Shown here: piece after piece, positions 12,819 to 23,032 of the stretch
How the letters are laid out: each line of letters starts with the position of its first letter
Position numbering within the stretch: the stretch's first letter is position 1
Assembly: GCA_903900335.1 (NCBI GenBank)
Contig: CAIUMP010000017.1
Span: 62,001 to 126,000 of the forward strand
Direction of reading: 5' to 3'
Length of the DNA stretch: 64,000 nt
DNA from: an uncultured Ignavibacteriota bacterium
GTDB lineage: Bacteria > Bacteroidota > Ignavibacteria > Palsa-1295
The notes under the pieces: model-generated
The model's input: the letters and a program-made list of their open reading frames with translations, nothing else
What the model was told of the DNA's origin: nothing
Databases searched by the model: none
Program-made: the position numbers and the translations under genes

Positions 12819-13187
12819 TTACTTCTTCGGAATTACCGCTATAGCGGTCACCGAAAATTCGCCCGGCTGTGGCTCTGACAGTGTGAAGTTCACGGAATCC
12901 CCGACAGCGACGTGATCCAGCAGCGATGCTTTCTCTACATGATAATCCATCGCCATCGCTTCCATAATGCCGGGAATATCATTGTGCGATAGGTTCACGT
13001 TCGTGCGCGAGGAGTCGATGGAGATGACGATGCCTTTGCCCGTGCCGGATTTCACCGCCGCTGGTGCCGCCGCAGCAGCAGTCGAATCGGTGGCCACTTT
13101 GTCGTCGCTCTTCTTATCACAGGATGTGATGGCAAGAGTGCTTGCAACGAGTGCGATTGTAAGAACGGATGTACGTGTCTTGTGCAT
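12819..13187 (-). CDS. CusF-like periplasmic copper/silver-binding lipoprotein
   Basis: A 122-residue lipoprotein. The lipobox LAITSC puts the lipidated Cys at residue 23, followed by a Thr/Ala-rich tether. Residues 48-122 are a CusF-like OB-fold. The metal-site segment SHNDIPGIMEAMAM supplies His68, Met78 and Met80, matching the His and two Met ligands known from E. coli CusF. The position of the capping Trp of E. coli CusF (Trp44) appears to be Met75. Its likely job is to carry Cu(I)/Ag(I) in the periplasm to the CusB/CusA pump encoded on either side (27 bases after the CusB-CusF fusion, 92 before CusA). The family assignment is strong; the metal identity is inferred from family. Confidence 0.85.
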   Translation of the reverse strand: MHKTRTSVLTIALVASTLAITSCDKKSDDKVATDSTAAAAAPAAVKSGTGKGIVISIDSSRTNVNLSHNDIPGIMEAMAMDYHVEKASLLDHVAVGDSVNFTLSEPQPGEFSVTAIAVIPKK

Positions 13188-13213: not shown

Positions 13214-14626
13214 TTATTGTGCTTCGATGTCCGTGATCTCATACTGTCCATCGGATACCCTGGTTAGCGTAAACCGAACAGACGCATTTACTTTTACTTT
13301 CTCCAGCATCGCCGCGCTGCTCGCCCTGTAGGCCATCGTCATCGCGGCCATTACACCTGGGATGTTACCATGGTCGAGCGTGATCGTTTGCTTCTGCTTG
13401 TCGATGCCGCGCACCAATCCGGTGGATTCTCCGGACGATTTGCCGGACTCGCTGCCTTTCGACATATCCATCCCGGCCATCGGATTGTTCTCCGAGATCT
13501 GATGCTCCGCGTCCAGCATAAATGCTCCTTGAACCGCAACCGCCTCGCCGCCCTTTAGGCCACTGCGTATCAGGGTGAATCCATCTCCCGACGATGGGCC
13601 TAGTGTTACCTGATGGCTTAAGAATACATTATCACCATCGTGAACCCATACGAAATCACCAGTGCCGGAGCGAACAACCGCGCTCGTCGGTACAGCTAAC
13701 GCGCTCTCACTGCCGCTGTTGATCTGAGCGGTGAACGTCATGCCGGGACGCAGTTTGTATCCAGTGTTGTTGAAGGATGCGCGAACTCGCACGGTCCGCG
13801 ATGCCTGGTCCTCCATCGGTGAAATGAAAATGATCGGGCCAGAGAAATGTAGGTTTGGATAGGCGTTGGATTGAATGGTAACTGTCTGTCCGAGCTTCAC
13901 GCTGCTAATGTCCGTTTCCTGAACATCCACCTCGGCCCACACAGTTGAAAGATCGACGAGTTGAAAGATGGTAGTCCCTTCATCGACATACGCACCCTCC
14001 TGCGTTTGCTTTTGTACGACAAGCCCACTCGCCGGCGAGGTAACTCTCACAACATTCGTCAGTTCACCGTTCGTCTCCAGCGCGCGAATGTGTTCGCTAG
14101 TCAGCCCGTACAATGCAAGCCGCTTCCTTCCAACTTCGATCAACCCTGTGTTGGGATGCCCGTGGTGCATAGCGGGGGAGGCCATGATCTCGTTGTCGCG
14201 CTTCTCGCGTTCGGCGATGAGCAGCTCTTGCTCTGCGTTCAGAATCTCGGGGCTATAGAAATCGAAGAGTGGCTCGCCCTGCTTGACATAGGTACCGGTC
14301 GCGTTGACGAACAATTTCTCAATGCGCCCTCGTGCGCGGGCCGCGATCGTTCGCTCACCCGTTTCCGGAGCCACGATGAGCCCAATGGCAGAGATCGTGT
14401 TCTCGACGCTCCGCTTTTCCACCGTGGCCACGGCAATGTTGGCACGAACGACCGAGAGATTCGAAAGCTGGACCGTCGCCACCTTCTGCGCCTCTAAGGA
14501 TGTGGCCGTTGGAGTAGACACGCTCCAGGTCGTCTTTTGCGTCGATGGACGAAAGTACAAGAGGGCCGCAACCCCAACCACCGCGATGCCCAGAAGCGCG
14601 AAAAGCCATTTGACCTGTTTGTTCAT
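13214..14626 (-). CDS. cusB: CusB-type membrane fusion protein with C-terminal CusF-like domain
   Basis: A 470-residue periplasmic adaptor of the heavy-metal RND system. An N-terminal anchor (LFALLGIAVVGVAALLYF) is followed by barrel-sandwich and hairpin regions (SAIGLIVAPETGERTIAARARGR near 79-101, VTSPASGLVVQKQ near 195-207) and the beta-barrel region (RVRASFNNTGYKLRPGMTF). A Met-rich linker (NPMAGMDMSKGSESG, about 381-395) joins it to a complete CusF-like domain at 403-470 whose site LDHGNIPGVMAAMTM gives His419, Met429 and Met431, with Met426 at the Trp44 position. The fusion would tether the metallochaperone to the adaptor. It lies 9 bases after the TolC gene and 26 bases before a second, free CusF lipoprotein gene. 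Confidence 0.92.
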   Translation of the reverse strand: MNKQVKWLFALLGIAVVGVAALLYFRPSTQKTTWSVSTPTATSLEAQKVATVQLSNLSVVRANIAVATVEKRSVENTISAIGLIVAPETGERTIAARARGRIEKLFVNATGTYVKQGEPLFDFYSPEILNAEQELLIAEREKRDNEIMASPAMHHGHPNTGLIEVGRKRLALYGLTSEHIRALETNGELTNVVRVTSPASGLVVQKQTQEGAYVDEGTTIFQLVDLSTVWAEVDVQETDISSVKLGQTVTIQSNAYPNLHFSGPIIFISPMEDQASRTVRVRASFNNTGYKLRPGMTFTAQINSGSESALAVPTSAVVRSGTGDFVWVHDGDNVFLSHQVTLGPSSGDGFTLIRSGLKGGEAVAVQGAFMLDAEHQISENNPMAGMDMSKGSESGKSSGESTGLVRGIDKQKQTITLDHGNIPGVMAAMTMAYRASSAAMLEKVKVNASVRFTLTRVSDGQYEITDIEAQ

Positions 14627-14635
14627 AGCGTTGTC

Positions 14636-16012
14636 TTAATATTCTGTATAGCGCACCAGATCCATCCCGGTCTCATACTCTATCTCCGCGAGTGCTTTGT
14701 TATATTCTGCCTCGATCTGAAACTCGTCATGCTCCCGATGCAGCATGGCAAGTTCGTTGCGCAGCACATCATTCGCGCTGGCTTTGTTGTAGGTGTAATT
14801 CGCGTTTGTCGTCGCAAGGCTTGTGGACGCCGCCGGCAGAACTTCATCCTTAAGCAGTTCGTACTCCTTGCGAAGTCCCTCCAGTCGCGCAAGCTGGGTT
14901 TCGATCATTGTATGTATATCCAGCTTCTCTGCTCGCTCTTGGGAGAGTTTCATCGTGCGCATCGCATCGGCCTCCCCGGTTGCTTCTTCGCGCCGATTGG
15001 TGTGGAGGAACGGCAGATCAAAGCTCACGCTCGCCGAGAGCAGATCGTTCTGTGCCATTGCGGTCGGCATCGGATTCAGCGGTGTGTTCGGCGCAAGGCG
15101 GTCGCGCTGCATGTAACTGAGTGAGACCTGAAAGTCGGGGTACTTATCGAGATCATTGCGCGCGGACATCCGCCGATACGTCTCGACCTGCGAACGAATG
15201 CCCGCTAGCTTCGCCCGATGTATCGCGGCAATGGAGTCCAGCTCGGGAAGCGTGAACCCCAACTGCGGGAGGCCGAGATGCGGCACGATGTTAAATTCGG
15301 AAGCGGGCAGCCCACTGGCGCGCTCCAATTCACTTCGCTTCATCGCCACCATCATCTGGTCCTCGATGATCTGCTTCTTGATGTCGCTGCGTTCGAGCTG
15401 CAAATTGAGCACATCCTGCTGCGTTGCCGTGGCGGTTGTGAGTCGCTGTTCAGTAGAGGCGATCAGATTATCCACCGCGTCTGCATGGCTGTGGTTCGTG
15501 GTTATTGCACGGTCCAAGTGATACAGATCGAAGTACGCCAGTTTCACATCACGCCGCAGCGCATTGCGCTCTTCTGCAAGATCGAAGGTGGATTTCACCG
15601 TATCCTGCGCCGCGATGTTTCGCTCTGCACCAAGCTTGCCGGGATAGGGGAACATCTGGCTAATGCCGATCATCCTGCCGGTCATCATCTCCTGCGAGAA
15701 GCTGAAACTTGTAACCGGAACACCTTGCACTCCGAGCATCAGCATTGGGTTTGCCAGTGACGACTTGTCCGCGATGCGATGTCCTGCCGCAGAAATTGCA
15801 GCGCGTTGCTCGGCTAGCATCGGATGCTGTTCGATCGCGTTGAGCAGATGGTAAAGCCCAATCATGCTCGTATCAGAAGCGTTGTTGCTGATTCCGCCTT
15901 CAGAAACGCGGCTCAGATTCGCCTGCTTGCGTGCCGGTTGTGACACGGCTACGCTCGCCGCGAGCAGCAGCAACATAGAACATCCGAATTGTGTAAGGTA
16001 CCGTTTAAGCAT
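14636..16012 (-). CDS. TolC-family outer-membrane channel of the heavy-metal efflux operon
   Basis: A 458-residue outer-membrane efflux protein of the CusC/CzcC type. A signal peptide (MLKRYLTQFGCSMLLLLAASVAVSQ) precedes the usual duplicated half-repeats of coiled-coil alpha-barrel, for example HRIADKSSLANPMLMLGVQG near residue 77 and the RREEATGEADAMRTMKLSQ region in the second half. It would form the outer-membrane duct for the CusB/CusA pump encoded immediately downstream (9-base gap). It is the first large gene of the operon; the Cys-rich small secreted protein lies 104 bases upstream in the same orientation. Confidence 0.9.
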   Translation of the reverse strand: MLKRYLTQFGCSMLLLLAASVAVSQPARKQANLSRVSEGGISNNASDTSMIGLYHLLNAIEQHPMLAEQRAAISAAGHRIADKSSLANPMLMLGVQGVPVTSFSFSQEMMTGRMIGISQMFPYPGKLGAERNIAAQDTVKSTFDLAEERNALRRDVKLAYFDLYHLDRAITTNHSHADAVDNLIASTEQRLTTATATQQDVLNLQLERSDIKKQIIEDQMMVAMKRSELERASGLPASEFNIVPHLGLPQLGFTLPELDSIAAIHRAKLAGIRSQVETYRRMSARNDLDKYPDFQVSLSYMQRDRLAPNTPLNPMPTAMAQNDLLSASVSFDLPFLHTNRREEATGEADAMRTMKLSQERAEKLDIHTMIETQLARLEGLRKEYELLKDEVLPAASTSLATTNANYTYNKASANDVLRNELAMLHREHDEFQIEAEYNKALAEIEYETGMDLVRYTEY

Positions 16013-16116: not shown

Positions 16117-16494
16117 CTAAATGCGGAAGGTCGAGAGGAGGGCTTGCCTATCCCCTGATAAGGGAGGGGGATGGGAAGTTGCTTCCGTCAGGATCGGTGA
16201 ATCCTGCAGGATAGCGAGGAGAGATGAATTTGACGCAACCAGAACGCCGGTTTGCGAGAGCGACTGGTCAGAAGGCGCAGGCTTTGCGTAGGATGCCTTC
16301 AACACCAGGTACTTCGCACCATACACGCAGCAGGATTTTTTAGCCCTACCGCCCTTGGCCAATGTATTCCGACACGCCGCGCAAGTCATGGATTTCCCAG
16401 CGCTCCGTTTGGTGCACGTCATGGTTGCAACAGTAACTCCCGTTGAGGAGAGCAGCATCATAACGGCCAGAAAGATCCGGAGAAGCGAGGTCAT
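16117..16494 (-). CDS. Small Cys-rich secreted protein, HYC_CC_PP-like
   Basis: A 125-residue exported protein from the ATG at 16494, which starts a good signal peptide (MTSLLRIFLAVMMLLSSTGVTV); in-frame ATGs at 16518 and 16551 are alternatives. The mature part begins with a basic Cys cluster (MTCTKRSAGKSMTCAAC, then KKSCC) and has a late HPPPL motif. The signal peptide ending SSTGVTV, a following Cys, a CC pair and a C-terminal PP pair recall the HYC_CC_PP family of Bacteroidota, often found near metal-efflux genes; the His-Tyr of that name is missing. A metal-related periplasmic role is inferred from the Cys pattern and from its place just ahead of the Cus-type operon. Confidence 0.55.
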   Translation of the reverse strand: MTSLLRIFLAVMMLLSSTGVTVATMTCTKRSAGKSMTCAACRNTLAKGGRAKKSCCVYGAKYLVLKASYAKPAPSDQSLSQTGVLVASNSSLLAILQDSPILTEATSHPPPLSGDRQALLSTFRI

Positions 16495-16762
16495 GTCTAG
16501 ATGCTTAAACGAACCCATTCCGAAATGATTCACACATGGCTTAGCACGCACTCTAATACACGGTTCCTAGCGGAGTCATCCATCCGCCAAAACTGTTTCC
16601 TGCGCCGCTGACTCATCGGGGATTATCGAATAATGAGTTTGGCTTAATTCATGGTTTTCACTGTAACAAATTCGCCCGTTTCCGTCTAAACATTCCAACT
16701 GTCCCTGGGCCAAGGTCCGGGGTGGGTGATTTTCATCCATTTGGGCTGTATTTCTCCTACCG

Positions 16763-18277
16763 ATGAACGCTCGATCAATTTCTTACTCCGCCCCTGCGCG
16801 TGCCCTCCGCATTGCTGGACTTCGCGGTTTTGCAACCTGCACATTCCTTGTCGCAACTTCCTTTCTGGCGACTGCCGATGTGGCTCAAGCTCAAATCACT
16901 GGCCCCGCCTACGATGGTTCACAGGCTCCCGGCCCGATTCCCAGCCAGACCACACCGCCGGCATCTTCACTCTCGAAAGAAGTAACGCTTGAGGCAGCCA
17001 TCAAGGCCGCGCTCGAACGAAATTACTCGACGCGAACCGCCGATAATAAATATCGCAGTGCCGAGATCGAAGCGCGCCGCTCCGATGCAAATCTCCTGCC
17101 GAGCGCATCTGCCAACGGATCCTATCAGTACTCTTATTCACTCTCCTCGGCAGCCGCCCGAACGTTGACCGTGAATAATCCCGTCACCGGGCTTCCGATC
17201 ACAACGGTCACCAAGGACGCCGGAAATCACTCGCTCAGTTATGGTGCCAGTGCGGACTTCAATATCTATCACGGCGGAGCGGATGCGGCAAGAATACGCA
17301 GTGCCAACCAATCCCTCGATAACGCGCGATGGACGAAGACCTACACCCGGCAGCAGATTGCCTTCTCGGTAACAAACAACTACCTCACTGCGCTGAGAAC
17401 CAGCGAGCTTGTTGATGCGGCCCGCAAGACACTCGAAGAGGCCGTCTCGCAAATGGGACTTGTCAAAGGAAAGTATGATGCGGGTGTGATTCCCATCGGA
17501 CAAGTCTATCAGCAACAAGCAGTGGTGGGGCAGGATTCGCTTGGGCTGATCGAGGCCATCAATAATTACGAGAACGCGAAGGCCGATGTGCTCTTCCTTC
17601 TGAATGTTTCGCCGAACCAATACGATACCTACAGCTTCTCCTTAGCCGGAATTGATACATCGACATCGCCAGCATCCCGCGCGGCCGTCGAAGCGACGAT
17701 CAGTGACGCCGCTCTGGACAAGGCGATCGACAATCGCCCCGATGTCATCGCCGCTCGTCATGCGTTGCAGGCGAGCATGGAGGCGATCACGGAGACGCGC
17801 GCAGGACTTTACCCGAGTCTGGATGCTACGGCGGGAATCGGTGGAAACGGATCTGACCCGAACCTTGCGAAGGTCAGCCTTGATCATCACCTTAGCGCCG
17901 GGCTTACACTCTCGATCCCGCTATTCGACAAGATGCAGAACCGACTGGCGATTGACGAGCAGGAGATCGGCGTGGAGAACGAGCGCATCGCGCTTGAACA
18001 ACTTGTGCAGCAGATCCGCAGCGACGCCGCGAAGGCACTGAACAACCTACATTCCTCCGATGAAGCAATTGGCGTCAGTGAGTTAGCTCTCGCAAGTGCA
18101 GAGGAAAGTCAGCGGTTGGCTCAGGAGCGGCAGCGCGTTGGCGCGGGAACGCAGGTTGATGTCGTAATTGCTGAGGCGGCAGTCGAGCAGGCGCGCGCAA
18201 ATTACGTCAATGCAAAATTTAATTACATCCTCGCGCAGCACCAGCTTGCTTATACGCTTGGACAGACGAAATACTAA
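16763..18277 (+). CDS. TolC-family outer-membrane efflux protein
   Basis: A 504-residue TolC-type channel with a long basic N-region and signal peptide ending ADVAQAQ near residue 45. The conserved first helix is LEAAIKAALERNY, with SASANGSYQYSYS strand residues and a second repeat (DKAIDNRPDVIAARHAL ... PSLDATAGIGGNGSDP ... LSIPLFD). It heads a rightward operon with a periplasmic adaptor, an ABC ATPase and two permeases, so it is the outer-membrane exit for a MacAB-like pump rather than for the Cus system, which has its own TolC and diverges from the other side of a 268-base intergenic region. The ATG at 16763 is preceded by no strong ribosome-binding site. Confidence 0.9.
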   Translation: MNARSISYSAPARALRIAGLRGFATCTFLVATSFLATADVAQAQITGPAYDGSQAPGPIPSQTTPPASSLSKEVTLEAAIKAALERNYSTRTADNKYRSAEIEARRSDANLLPSASANGSYQYSYSLSSAAARTLTVNNPVTGLPITTVTKDAGNHSLSYGASADFNIYHGGADAARIRSANQSLDNARWTKTYTRQQIAFSVTNNYLTALRTSELVDAARKTLEEAVSQMGLVKGKYDAGVIPIGQVYQQQAVVGQDSLGLIEAINNYENAKADVLFLLNVSPNQYDTYSFSLAGIDTSTSPASRAAVEATISDAALDKAIDNRPDVIAARHALQASMEAITETRAGLYPSLDATAGIGGNGSDPNLAKVSLDHHLSAGLTLSIPLFDKMQNRLAIDEQEIGVENERIALEQLVQQIRSDAAKALNNLHSSDEAIGVSELALASAEESQRLAQERQRVGAGTQVDVVIAEAAVEQARANYVNAKFNYILAQHQLAYTLGQTKY

Positions 18278-18387
18278 AATAGAAAGTGCCAAGTCCTAAA
18301 GTAGAATACGAGTAGCGTCGAAAAGAGTAACGAAACAGGTATCCTTGTGATGACGCAGAACTCAGGACTTTCCTTATCCCCCGAATA

Positions 18388-19755
18388 ATGGCGATCACCA
18401 AACCACAGAGTACGATGTCCAATACTACCGCGAGCCCTAGTGGGGCTACGCTAACGCCGCTGGAGGCGTCGCTTGCAAAACGTAAGAATAAGAGGAAGCG
18501 CAGCCGCAACATCGCTCTGATCGTTGGCGGCATTCTTGCGCTGGTCATTATCATCGCCATCGCTACCGGGGGCAAAGAAAAGCCGATCAGTGTGCAGACC
18601 GAGAAAGTCGCGCGGCATACGATAACCGAAGTAGTGCAGGCCACGGGCAAGATCCAGCCGGAAGTGCAGGTGAAGGTATCACCAGAAGTACCCGGTGAAA
18701 TTATTTCGCTACCGTTCAAGGAAGGTGACCATGTGAAGAAGGGTCAGCTCATCGCGAAGATCAAGCCGACAACGTTTCAGGAGCAATATGCCGCCGCGCA
18801 AGCACAGTTAAGCTCCTCGAAGGCGCAGGCCGAACAGCAGAAGGCGTCCATGATAAATGCGAAGCAGGACCTGGTGCGTGCCGAGAAGCTCAAGGCAACG
18901 CATCTGCTCTCTGAGCAGGATTTCGATGCGATCAAGGCAAAGTACGATGCAACGGTCGCAGGGCTCAACTCCTCGAACTTTCAGGCGGAGGCAGCCGAAA
19001 GCCAGATGCGGCAGTACAGCGAGTCACTCAGCAAGACGAGCGTCCTCGCTCCGATGGATGGCGTCATCACTTCACTCATCTCACAGCTTGGCGAGAAGGT
19101 CGTTGGCACAAGCTCCTTCGCTGGTACGGACATGATGACCGTGAGCGATCTGACCGTAATGAACGCGATGGTGGATGTGGACGAGAACGATGTCGTCAAT
19201 ATTAAGATCGGCAATCACGTTCGCGTTTCCATCGATGCGTATCCAACGCAGACGTTCACTGGTACCGTCATCGAAGTTGCCAACAGCGCGAAGCTCGCGG
19301 GCACCGGCACGCAGGATCAGTCCACGAATTTCACGGTCAAGGTGAGACTTGATTCACTTCAGAAGGCGGATCTTCGTCCCGGCATGAGTTGCACGGCACG
19401 TATAGAGACAAGCACGAAGCAGGACGTTATCGCCGCACCTCTCATGGCTGTCACGCGCCGCGATAACGAAGACGATAAGGCAGCGGACTCGATGAAGAAA
19501 GTTCGCCAGGCGAACAAGGGTGACTTCCACGAAGGTGAAGAGACATCGACGATCGTTTTCATTGTGTCGAAGGGTGTAGCAAAGAAGGTCGCCGTGAAGA
19601 CGGGCATTTCGGATAATGCTTACGTAGAAATTCTCTCAGGACTGAAGGGCGATGAAGAGGTCATCAAGGGTAACTTCCGCGCCGTCTCGAAAGAACTAGA
19701 TGACGGCAAAAAGGTCACCGTAGATAACTCCGGAAAATCCGGTGATGGAAAATAG
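18388..19755 (+). CDS. MacA-like periplasmic adaptor (HlyD/membrane fusion family)
   Basis: A 455-residue membrane fusion protein. Residues 1-40 are cytosolic and basic (KRKNKRKRSRN), followed by one anchor helix (IALIVGGILALVIIIAIA). The lipoyl/barrel-sandwich half is seen in VVQATGKIQPEVQVKVSPEVPGE and its partner SVLAPMDGVITSLISQLGEKV. Between them is a coiled-coil hairpin rich in Gln/Ala/Lys (about 130-220), and a beta-barrel follows (VRVSIDAYPTQTFTGTVIEVA). A charged insertion (NEDDKAADSMKKVRQANKG) lies near residue 375. It links the TolC protein encoded upstream to the ABC permeases downstream (110 and 37-base gaps). Substrate unknown. Confidence 0.9.
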   Translation: MAITKPQSTMSNTTASPSGATLTPLEASLAKRKNKRKRSRNIALIVGGILALVIIIAIATGGKEKPISVQTEKVARHTITEVVQATGKIQPEVQVKVSPEVPGEIISLPFKEGDHVKKGQLIAKIKPTTFQEQYAAAQAQLSSSKAQAEQQKASMINAKQDLVRAEKLKATHLLSEQDFDAIKAKYDATVAGLNSSNFQAEAAESQMRQYSESLSKTSVLAPMDGVITSLISQLGEKVVGTSSFAGTDMMTVSDLTVMNAMVDVDENDVVNIKIGNHVRVSIDAYPTQTFTGTVIEVANSAKLAGTGTQDQSTNFTVKVRLDSLQKADLRPGMSCTARIETSTKQDVIAAPLMAVTRRDNEDDKAADSMKKVRQANKGDFHEGEETSTIVFIVSKGVAKKVAVKTGISDNAYVEILSGLKGDEEVIKGNFRAVSKELDDGKKVTVDNSGKSGDGK

Positions 19756-19792
19756 TACGGTTCGAACCTAGTACGAAGAAACAGTCGCACAC

Positions 19793-20533
19793 ATGGCAAC
19801 GGATAAACATACTGCCGAGAACTCGGTCATCTTCTTAGAGCAGGTTCAGAAGATCTATAAGATGGGTGAAGAGTACGTCTATGCTCTTCGCGGATTGACC
19901 GTTGGTGTGCAGAAGAACGAGTACGTGGCCATCATGGGGCCGTCGGGTTCGGGTAAATCCACGCTCATGAACATCATAGGCTGTTTGGATACGCCGACGA
20001 CAGGCAACTACTTTTTCAACGGCGTGAACGTCGCAGGATTAGACGACAACGATCTCGCTGGGATTCGCAACAAAGAGATCGGCTTCGTCTTCCAAACATT
20101 CAATTTGTTGCCACGCAGCGATTCCTTACATAACGTCGAACTGCCGCTCATTTACGCTGGTGTCGGCAAAGACGAACGCCGCCAGCGTGCTATCGATGCG
20201 CTCACACATGTCGGCCTTGCCGACCGTGCTGGGCACAAGCCGAACGAACTCTCGGGCGGCCAGCGGCAGCGCGTTGCCATCGCACGTGCGCTCGTCACGC
20301 GGCCTTCGATCATCCTTGCTGATGAACCAACGGGTAATCTCGATTCGAAGACCGGCGAGGACATCATGCGTTTGTTCAACGAACTTCGCGAACAGGGAAA
20401 TACGATCATCGTTGTTACGCACGAAGAGGATATTGCGCGACACGCCGAGCGCATCGTTCGCATTAAGGATGGACTTGTCGAGAAGGACGAAGTTATCCCC
20501 GTCTCGGAGCGCATCGTGCCGGTAGCACGATAG
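19793..20533 (+). CDS. MacB/LolD-type ABC transporter ATP-binding subunit
   Basis: A 246-residue ABC ATPase of the MacB/LolD/FtsE group. Walker A is GPSGSGKST at 49-57, the Q-loop is [10 protein letters not shown] at 98-107, the signature is [15 protein letters not shown] at 153-167 and Walker B is [13 protein letters not shown] at 173-185, with catalytic Glu178. The H-loop is VVTHEED. It powers the two FtsX-type permeases encoded next in the operon. Mechanotransmission without transport through the membrane core is the family's known mode. Confidence 0.95.
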
Positions 20534-20548
20534 AACATCACTTTAGCC

Positions 20549-21796
20549 GTGGCTAGACTACTTCAGGATACCTTCGAGGGAATGAGCATGGCGCGCACCG
20601 CGCTCCGTGCCAATCCCCTGCGTTCGGCGCTCACGATGCTGGGTATAATCATCGGCATTGTGACGGTGACTCTTATGAGTGCGTTCATCACCGGGCTGGA
20701 CAACATGTTCCATGCGACCACAAGCTTCATGGGCACGGATGTCTACTACATAGACAAAAATAGTTGGGGTGGAGACTCCTGGGCGAGAGAACGCAATCGC
20801 CAGAACATCAGCATGGAGGAAGCCGACCGGCTGCGCACTCGCATGACGACTGCCAAAGCAATTAGCGTGAACGCGAGCGAATGGAACGTCGTCGTTCGCA
20901 CCACACAAAACGAAGTCGATGGTATCAGGATCATGGGTGTCGATGCAGATGCGGAAAAGACCAGTTCCCTCACCATCGACAAGGGGCGCCTCTTCGCAAC
21001 TCAGGAGTTGCTCGGCGCACGGCCGGTTGCTGTCATTGGGTATGATATTTGGGATCAGCTCTTTCACAAAGGGGACGCTATAGGCAAGACGATCCGGCTC
21101 AACGGCCATAGCTACGAGGTCATCGGAATTGCGAAGAAAGTTGGAGGCATGTTTGGCTTCTTCTCGATCGACCACGAAGTGGTCGTGCCCATCCGCACTT
21201 TTATGAACACGTTCGGTCGGCCCGATCGCTCACTAACGATCTCCGTAAAGGCGGCAAATGTACTGACGAAAGAAGACACGAAGGCCGAAGCGGAGTACAT
21301 GATGCGCATCGTCCGAGGCCTCAAACCCGGTGAGCCGAGCGATTTCTCGATCAATAGCGAGGATCAGTTCAATCAGATCTTCGATAAACTCACCGGTGTT
21401 CTGAACTTGATCGGGCTCGTCATAACGAGTCTGTCTCTGCTTGTCGGTGGTATCGGGATCATGAATATCATGTTTGTGACCGTTAAGGAGCGGACGCGAG
21501 AGATAGGGATACGCAAGGCGATCGGTGCGCGCCGCAGAATGATCCTCTCTCAATTCCTCACCGAGGCGTCGATCCTCTGTATCGTGGCTGGTACAACGGG
21601 ATTGGTGATCGCCTATACGGTGTCTTCCGTTATTAACCGCAGCATGCTAAAAGAGTCCGATATTAAGATCGACTTTAGTCCGCTGCTCATCGTAAGCGGA
21701 CTGGGCATTTCACTTTTTATCGGTATCATCAGTGGGCTTCTTCCGGCCTGGCGTGCCAGCCGGCTCGATCCAGTCGAGGCGTTACGCTACGAATAA
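20549..21796 (+). CDS. MacB-like ABC permease, first copy
   Basis: A 415-residue FtsX/MacB-family permease. One helix near residues 25-45 ([20 protein letters not shown]) is followed by a large periplasmic domain (MacB_PCD) and three C-terminal helices ([44 protein letters not shown] is the conserved join with its coupling helix). It ends with [18 protein letters not shown], the standard family tail. A GTG start at 20549 lies 15 bases after the ATPase stop. It lacks its own ATPase domain, unlike E. coli MacB. The stop codon is directly followed by the ATG of the second permease. Confidence 0.9.
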
Positions 21797-23032
21797 ATGC
21801 AAACGAGCGAAAATATCAAGCAGGCGTTTCACTCTATCCGAGGTAACAAACTTCGGAGCGGGCTGACCCTGCTCGGGATCGTCGTGGGTGTATTCTCGAT
21901 CATCGGTGTGATGACCGCGCTTGGGGCATTAACGAACTCGATCGACCAGTCGCTCTCCCAACTTGGCTCCACCACCTTCACTCTGAAGAAGTGGCCGAGC
22001 ATGCATATGGGTGGAAATGACTGGATGAAATACCGCCGCCGCAAGCCGATCCTGTATGAACAGATCCGAACGGTTCGAGCCAACACGCGGCTGCCTGAAA
22101 CGGTCAGTGCGGAGAATACCTACACTCCGGTCATCGCCTCCTTCGGCAGCGAAAAGAGCGATCCATCCTACTCGATCATTGGCTCGGATGAAAGCTTCGC
22201 GATCAATCACAGCTTCGATATCGCACGAGGCCGCATGCTCAACGCGGACGATGTTCAGTACGGTCGTGACGTTGCTGTGCTTGGTCAGGATATCGTAAGT
22301 CGCATCTTCACACACAACGAAGAGCCGATCGGGCAGGCTATCCGGCTGAACAATCACGAGTATACGGTCATCGGCGTCTTCGAACACAAGGGCGGTGGCA
22401 TGGGGCAATCGCAGGATGGCTTTGCCCTCGTGCCCATCACCAACGAGCTTCGCACATTCACCGTACAAGACAACACTTCGCTAGACATCCTCGTCCGCGC
22501 CCGCAACAAGCAGACCTTTGATGAAACGCAGGACGAAGTGATCGGCGCTTTACGCGCTGCGCGGGGTGTGAAGCCCGGCGTGGAGAATGATTTCGAAGTG
22601 GAGAATAACGACAGCCTCACAACGCAGTTTGATTCCTTCTCCATGTACCTGAAGTATGCTGGGTTTGGTATCAGCGCAATCGCTTTACTTGCCGCGAGCA
22701 TAGGAATCATGAACATCATGCTCGTCAGCGTGACGGAGCGAACGAAAGAGATCGGCATTCGCAAAGCGATGGGCGCAACGAAGATGGACATCGCCGGACA
22801 ATTCGTCACCGAAGCCATCGTGCTTTGCGAAGTCGGTGGCGTTATCGGAATTGCCATCGGAATCGGACTAGGCAACATCATTGCCATCTTCATTCATGCG
22901 ACGGTGTATGTACCGATGGTATGGGTGGGTATCGGCCTTGCGGTGTGTTCGCTTGTCGGTATCGTCTTCGGCCTCTATCCCGCGATGAAGGCGGCGAATA
23001 TGCATCCGATCGATGCGTTGCGGTTTGAGTAG
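21797..23032 (+). CDS. MacB-like ABC permease, second copy
   Basis: A 411-residue paralogue of the preceding permease with the same plan: N-terminal helix (GNKLRSGLTLLGIVVGVFSII), periplasmic MacB_PCD domain, then three helices with IMNIMLVSVTERTKEIGIRKAMGATK and the tail YPAMKAANMHPIDALRFE. Its ATG directly abuts the previous stop, so the two are translationally linked. The pair probably forms a heterodimer served by the single ATPase, the adaptor and the TolC protein of the operon. It could export an antimicrobial, lipid or peptide; the substrate cannot be read from sequence. A palindromic repeat element follows the stop. Confidence 0.9.
   Translation: MQTSENIKQAFHSIRGNKLRSGLTLLGIVVGVFSIIGVMTALGALTNSIDQSLSQLGSTTFTLKKWPSMHMGGNDWMKYRRRKPILYEQIRTVRANTRLPETVSAENTYTPVIASFGSEKSDPSYSIIGSDESFAINHSFDIARGRMLNADDVQYGRDVAVLGQDIVSRIFTHNEEPIGQAIRLNNHEYTVIGVFEHKGGGMGQSQDGFALVPITNELRTFTVQDNTSLDILVRARNKQTFDETQDEVIGALRAARGVKPGVENDFEVENNDSLTTQFDSFSMYLKYAGFGISAIALLAASIGIMNIMLVSVTERTKEIGIRKAMGATKMDIAGQFVTEAIVLCEVGGVIGIAIGIGLGNIIAIFIHATVYVPMVWVGIGLAVCSLVGIVFGLYPAMKAANMHPIDALRFE

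Follow-up and report, generated by a model that had tools for sequence, protein, structure and literature searches.

The window, meaning the whole stretch of 64,000 nucleotides that was analysed, contains a pump gene cluster whose periplasmic adaptor ends in a CusF-like domain, and the question raised by this locus is which part of the arrangement departs from known systems. Whether the transfer of metal via CusF and CusB into CusA works as a switch or as a funnel is debated. An earlier note on this DNA drew attention to a Met at the place of the metal-capping Trp of CusF and to the fusion of chaperone and adaptor. The residue (M426 in the fused domain, M75 in the free protein) and the fusion are both real but ordinary, and the point of interest is that the adaptor has lost its N-terminal metal acceptor. 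Most of the mechanism proposed for it below is what we infer.

The genes of the cluster follow the order small Cys-rich protein, outer membrane factor (OMF), adaptor, free CusF and RND pump (Table 1). This order is kept in relatives except at L058, where about 3 kb separates the adaptor from the free CusF, and at L057, which ends early. The small Cys-rich protein matches the NCBIfam model HYC_CC_PP weakly (20.3 bits, below the cut-off of 28). A promoter scan returned 3 promoter-like sites against 4.5 expected and is uninformative.

Table 1. Features of the efflux gene cluster, in window coordinates.
Feature	Coordinates	Strand	Evidence
CusA-type RND pump, 1121 aa	9361..12726	-	TIGR00914 (CusA/CzcA heavy-metal RND) 1073.6 bits, cut-off 701.45
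Free CusF-like lipoprotein, 122 aa: C23, H68, M75, M78, M80	12819..13187	-	CusF_Ec aa 49-116, 53.8 bits, cut-off 27
Periplasmic adaptor (CusB/CzcB-like MFP) with C-terminal CusF domain	13214..14626	-	470 aa; Pfam HlyD_D23 + CusF_Ec
Fused CusF domain, aa 400-468: H419, M426, M429, M431	13223..13429	-	Pfam + structure model
Flexible linker, aa 374-394, M383-x2-M386-x-M388 (NPMAGMDM)	13445..13507	-	pLDDT <50
Met/His cluster at alpha-hairpin tip: M148, M153, H154, H155, H157	14156..14185	-	residue positions + model helices
Expected place of N-terminal CusB metal site (HMBD), aa 25-60, absent	14447..14554	-	profile search + alignment
Outer membrane factor (OEP/TolC-like)	14636..16012	-	PF02321 117.4 bits
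Small exported protein rich in Cys, at head of cluster	16117..16551	-	homologue 5' of OMF in 5/5 loci L055-L059

Pfam divides the adaptor into HlyD_D23 (PF16576, CusB/HlyD barrel-sandwich) at aa 74-296, with 210.7 bits, and CusF_Ec (PF11604) at the C-terminus, with 67.8 bits and an E-value of 7e-19 (cut-off 27). The protein passes TIGR01730 RND_mfp (164.9 bits, cut-off 94.9) and scores below the cut-off of the NCBIfam CusB model PRK09783.1 (108.9 bits versus 390). The fused domain is modelled with a pLDDT of 93.1, and the top nine rows of a fold search with it are all CusF, SilF or SilB-C (Z 10.0-11.1), which share the small beta-barrel CusF fold. Profile and fold matches together thus confirm the complete CusF-like domain that the earlier note had recognized. 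In the model of the full adaptor, an N-terminal membrane-type helix (aa 3-24) and the alpha-hairpin helices (aa 126-148 and 158-172) are followed by the unstructured linker with its three Met residues and by the CusF domain (aa 398-469); with a pTM of 0.45, the relative positions of the domains in this model are unreliable. The low pLDDT of the linker agrees with the earlier proposal that the chaperone is tethered to the pump. The linker motif NPMAGM[ND]M occurs in all seven fused adaptors of the family. A similar tail, PMPGMDH, ends the unfused family adaptor of G004 (L194), so the Met linker is not exclusive to fused adaptors and, judging from that tail, may be inherited rather than tied to the fusion. 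The Met/His cluster at the hairpin tip (aa 148-157) is missing from E. coli CusB by alignment, and Met/His-bearing loops also occur in the remaining aligned family adaptors.

The free protein beside the adaptor was likewise correctly identified as a CusF-like lipoprotein: it matches CusF_Ec with an E-value of 2e-14, and C23 fits a lipobox. The E. coli CusF ligands H36, M47 and M49 correspond to H419, M429 and M431 in the fused domain and to H68, M78 and M80 in the free protein, and the first ligand Met is preceded at -3 by M426 and M75, respectively. Both window domains have the spacing H-x9-M from the His to the first Met, whereas E. coli CusF has H-x10-M with Trp; in the alignment to E. coli CusF, the window loops are one residue shorter and have Met, with no Trp in the ligand loop of either domain. 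The one-residue gap falls before or after the Met depending on the alignment, so the Met lies close to the Trp44 position without demonstrably occupying it. What stands of the claimed exchange of Met for Trp44 is therefore the Met at -3, but not a clean substitution. Loftin (2009) reportedly prepared E. coli CusF with the W44M exchange.

The frequency of Met at this place was surveyed in PF11604 domains drawn from 13 genomes of the family, 148 of the phylum and 100 of the class, from 200 genomes of the phylum to which the Rhodoferax locus L068 belongs, and from some plasmid loci. Identical domain sequences were counted once, leaving 149 distinct domains. The 20 domains without a complete H...MxM site are kept in n, five H-x11 domains with Met at -4 are not scored as Met, and one Trp domain listed as H-x11 through an HH artefact is included among the Trp domains of the Pseudomonadota survey. 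Met stands at -3 in 66/149 distinct PF11604-type domains. Within the window's phylum, 42 of the 50 distinct domains are of the form H-x9-MxM with Met, one has Leu (H-x8), seven are without a complete site and none has Trp. The Pseudomonadota survey (n=87) contains 46 domains with Trp, 21 with Met, 7 with other residues and 13 without a complete site, and the plasmid and other domains (n=12) contain 9 with Trp and 3 with Met. Met tracks the short loop: it is present in 43/43 H-x9 domains and in 23 of 79 H-x10 domains, where the others have Trp (54), Leu (1) or Gln (1). This amounts to 43 to 0 versus 23 to 56, with a Fisher p of 2e-16 that is overstated by the relatedness of the sequences. The residue occurs across fused, free and SCO-fused CusF proteins, including 11/11 SCO-fused domains of the phylum.

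These counts rule out the Met cap as a rare change, and they remove it as the distinguishing mark that the earlier note had made of it, since Met is the rule in the phylum and common in Pseudomonadota. The Trp cap characterizes E. coli CusF and SilF but does not define CusF proteins, and the short-loop Met class is the standard CusF form across a whole phylum; no study of this class as a natural one was found in the open literature searched. The suggestion that a Met in the Trp place makes the site Met-rich and alters its Cu(I)/Ag(I) balance, and that the system stands apart for this reason, builds on the position of M426 and M75 and on the capping of the metal by Trp in CusF and SilF, which is described in the accessible part of PMC10656224. 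It is nevertheless quite improbable, because the residue follows the loop rather than a special pump and recurs in all three kinds of protein. The genus also contains a CusF paralogue with a broken site (L003, at G000:C61:32339-32542, L021, L024 and L028), which forms a clade of its own (100/100); the copy at L024 reads LLHPMTYAY, with Leu at -3 and Tyr for the second Met.

The fusion, presented earlier as special, had already been published. SilB of Cupriavidus metallidurans is described as an adaptor with a CusF-like C-terminal domain in the part of PMC4446572 that is accessible, and the accessible part of PMC3548706 counts CusB-CusF fusions in 22 gamma-proteobacteria. The present sample contains 32 fused adaptor ORFs, some with two or four tandem CusF domains. 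Four are present in the Pseudomonadota adaptors L147 and L150, where some are without the full ligand set.

Comparison with these systems locates the difference elsewhere. E. coli CusB/CusF/CusA (L162) shares with the window the barrel-sandwich adaptor, the CusF fold and the CusA Met triad, but its chaperone is only a separate protein, whereas the window also has a fused one. SilB (PDB 2L55) resembles the window adaptor in carrying the CusF fold at the C-terminus (Z 10.0, rmsd 2.1 over 73 residues). The gamma-proteobacterial fusions likewise join adaptor and CusF in a single gene; they belong to another group, and the accessible part of PMC3548706 mentions no lost N-terminal site. Class adaptors such as L170 and L173 have the core of the window adaptor and likewise carry an extra metal-type domain at the C-terminus, but they keep HMBD, and the added domain is a cupredoxin or YHS rather than CusF. 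The C-termini of ten class adaptors comprise, by Pfam, five with HMBD and Cupredoxin_1, three with HMBD and YHS, one with HMBD and DUF3347 and one with HMBD and no other metal-type domain, and by these domain assignments the class adaptors seem modular at the C-terminus. The combination of HMBD with a C-terminal Cupredoxin_1 or YHS is found in L170, L171, L173, L175, L178, L183, L184 and L187.

The N-terminal site of E. coli CusB (M49/M64/M66) lies, by alignment, in the motif YDPM...PGKSPFMDM, and Pfam HMBD overlaps a motif of this type in the scanned plasmid adaptors L050 and L051. This site is absent from the window adaptor, which gives no HMBD row at E-values up to 5, is gapped at M49/M64/M66 when aligned to CusB, and lacks Met, His and Cys throughout aa 2-147. 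A wrong start hiding part of the N-terminus is ruled out by the ORF, which opens only three codons ahead of the ATG, and by the gap of 9 bases between the adaptor and OMF genes. According to the accessible part of PMC6715271, CusB without its N-terminus renders E. coli Cu(I)-sensitive, and the M64I exchange abolishes the conformational response of CusB.

The absence is a property of the genus. Among the best 30 of 82 class matches, namely those with loci, the N-terminal site is absent in 6/6 adaptors of the genus, and HMBD is present in the 24 other class adaptors. The motif is kept in 25/25 fused adaptors outside the family, all from Pseudomonadota, and in this the Pseudomonadota fusions differ from the window adaptor. 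In a genome-contig scan of unfused adaptors, the motif is found in 16 of 19 and is missing in L067, L079 and L072 (the contig ends at L072). No HMBD was found anywhere in the window's genome (G000). The same holds for six of the seven genus genomes, and the sole match, in G009, is a long permease-like ORF with a YHS-like part that is not an adaptor. Another genus member, G007, has no adaptor-core match at an E-value of 1e-25, though CusF proteins are present. The lost N-terminal acceptor is the unusual trait of the window adaptor and went unremarked in the earlier note. No account of a swap of this acceptor for a fused CusF was found in the open literature searched on CusF, CusB-CusF fusions, HMBD adaptors and Kapabacteria copper efflux.

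The order of events was read from a tree of 62 adaptor cores, among which SilB is not included. All seven fused family adaptors fall into one clade (100/100). Within it, the adaptor of G012, from a sister genus, combines HMBD with CusF and is the sister of the six HMBD-less adaptors of the genus (98/94). The nearest adaptors outside this clade bear HMBD and are without CusF. Judged by the core sequences, the tree shows a single gain of CusF followed by a single loss of HMBD, because the adaptor with both parts is sister to the HMBD-less six and the outside adaptors are unfused and HMBD-bearing; the six thus count as one loss event. The fused family clade nests within unfused class adaptors, with starred branches between it and the Pseudomonadota fusions, most of which are separated from it by a branch supported at 100/99. 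The fusion of SilB and that of the window adaptor are probably separate in origin, as judged from these other Pseudomonadota fused adaptors. In a domain tree of 70 columns, weakly resolved elsewhere, the fused CusF domains group together (100/94), and they are joined by the CusF part from a G006 protein that combines cupredoxin and CusF. Inheritance of the fusion from Pseudomonadota is not favoured by the adaptor tree or by the domain tree, with its few columns. Copying of the fused domain from the neighbouring free CusF is not favoured either, the fused domains standing apart from the co-operonic free ones, G006 excepted. At L056:7205-8122, a protein that appears by eye to be cupredoxin-like is joined to a CusF domain; this domain sits with those fused to adaptors, as though it had been transferred from an adaptor to a chaperone.

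The pump argues against a change of function. It retains M573, M623, M672 and E625, the residues of CusA that mark a monovalent-metal pump, and each of the 12 distinct RND sequences compared with CusA by alignment keeps them; their conservation points to a substrate class that is probably monovalent, that is, Cu(I)/Ag(I). At M403 and M486, presumably the relay pair of CusA, the window pump has Leu and Leu. This pair and the missing HMBD could be taken to mean that the pump has changed its substrate or is decaying, with the loss of the N-terminal site as one symptom. Such an account is very improbable, since the triad and E625 are intact, the frames are open, gene order is largely conserved in relatives, and the relay positions vary likewise in class relatives that retain HMBD. 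Some 75 aa of low complexity are also inserted in the pump (aa ~786-860), with GMGGMG at CusA position ~797; this Met/Gly loop has unalignable counterparts in class relatives and none in either CusA or the Asticcacaulis pump. It is ruled out as a partner of the fusion by the presence of a Met-bearing loop in 6/7 class relatives outside the family for which the downstream DNA was analysed (the seventh, L202, has no RND match).

It is fairly probable that the locus, from a Kapaibacterium-like bacterium, encodes an operon for Cu(I)/Ag(I) efflux of the CusCBA type in which the acceptor of the adaptor has been replaced by a tethered short-loop Met CusF on a Met-rich linker. The swap of parts, HMBD out and CusF in, is shown by sequence and tree, and we infer that the tethered CusF fills the role of the lost acceptor. 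The domain would swing on its flexible linker and load Cu(I)/Ag(I), either directly in the periplasm or by transfer from the free CusF lipoprotein. It would then hand the metal to the pump, perhaps via M383/M386/M388, in place of the lost acceptor, and M426 may help to cap or shield the metal site instead of Trp. The complete site (H/M/M with Met) of the fused domain in 7/7 fused adaptors of the family would be needless in a pure spacer. Replacement is also backed by the cost of losing the N-terminal site in E. coli CusB, as reported in the accessible part of PMC6715271. The 3 of 19 unfused adaptors that are also without a recognizable N-terminal motif show that absence alone needs no replacement.

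A different role for the fused domain, that of a buffer or regulator only, is unlikely. Metal binding by the adaptor would then signal pump assembly, in line with the proposal of CusB as a switch in the accessible part of PMC6715271, and the free CusF would deliver straight to CusA. Free CusF is indeed still encoded between the adaptor and pump genes, in the window as well as in 4/5 relatives (at L056 as cupredoxin-CusF; L057 ends before the region), and from next door it could feed CusA directly, the tether then being dispensable. The full ligand set in all seven fused domains counts against a mere spacer, though it does not separate buffer from donor. Replacement of the acceptor, as the preferred reading, extends to a broader proposal for the genus, offered tentatively and with chances slightly short of even: the CusB-type acceptor was swapped for a tethered CusF and Met linker, chaperone and acceptor form a single mobile unit, and CusA is supplied without an N-terminal adaptor site. 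If this is true, the genus is a natural test of the purpose of the CusB N-terminal site. A pump that keeps the CusA triad, has gained a tethered CusF and has lost the CusB N-terminal site makes the choice between switch and funnel testable by one domain deletion.

Small proteins joining CusF to the HMBD motif are encoded at L195 (G002) and L197 (G012), both in family genomes, and this pairing suggests joint action of the two modules. Next to the cluster, a divergent operon at 16763-23032 encodes, by Pfam, an OEP channel and a HlyD-type adaptor, followed by an ABC ATPase-like ORF and two MacB-like permease ORFs recognized by eye.
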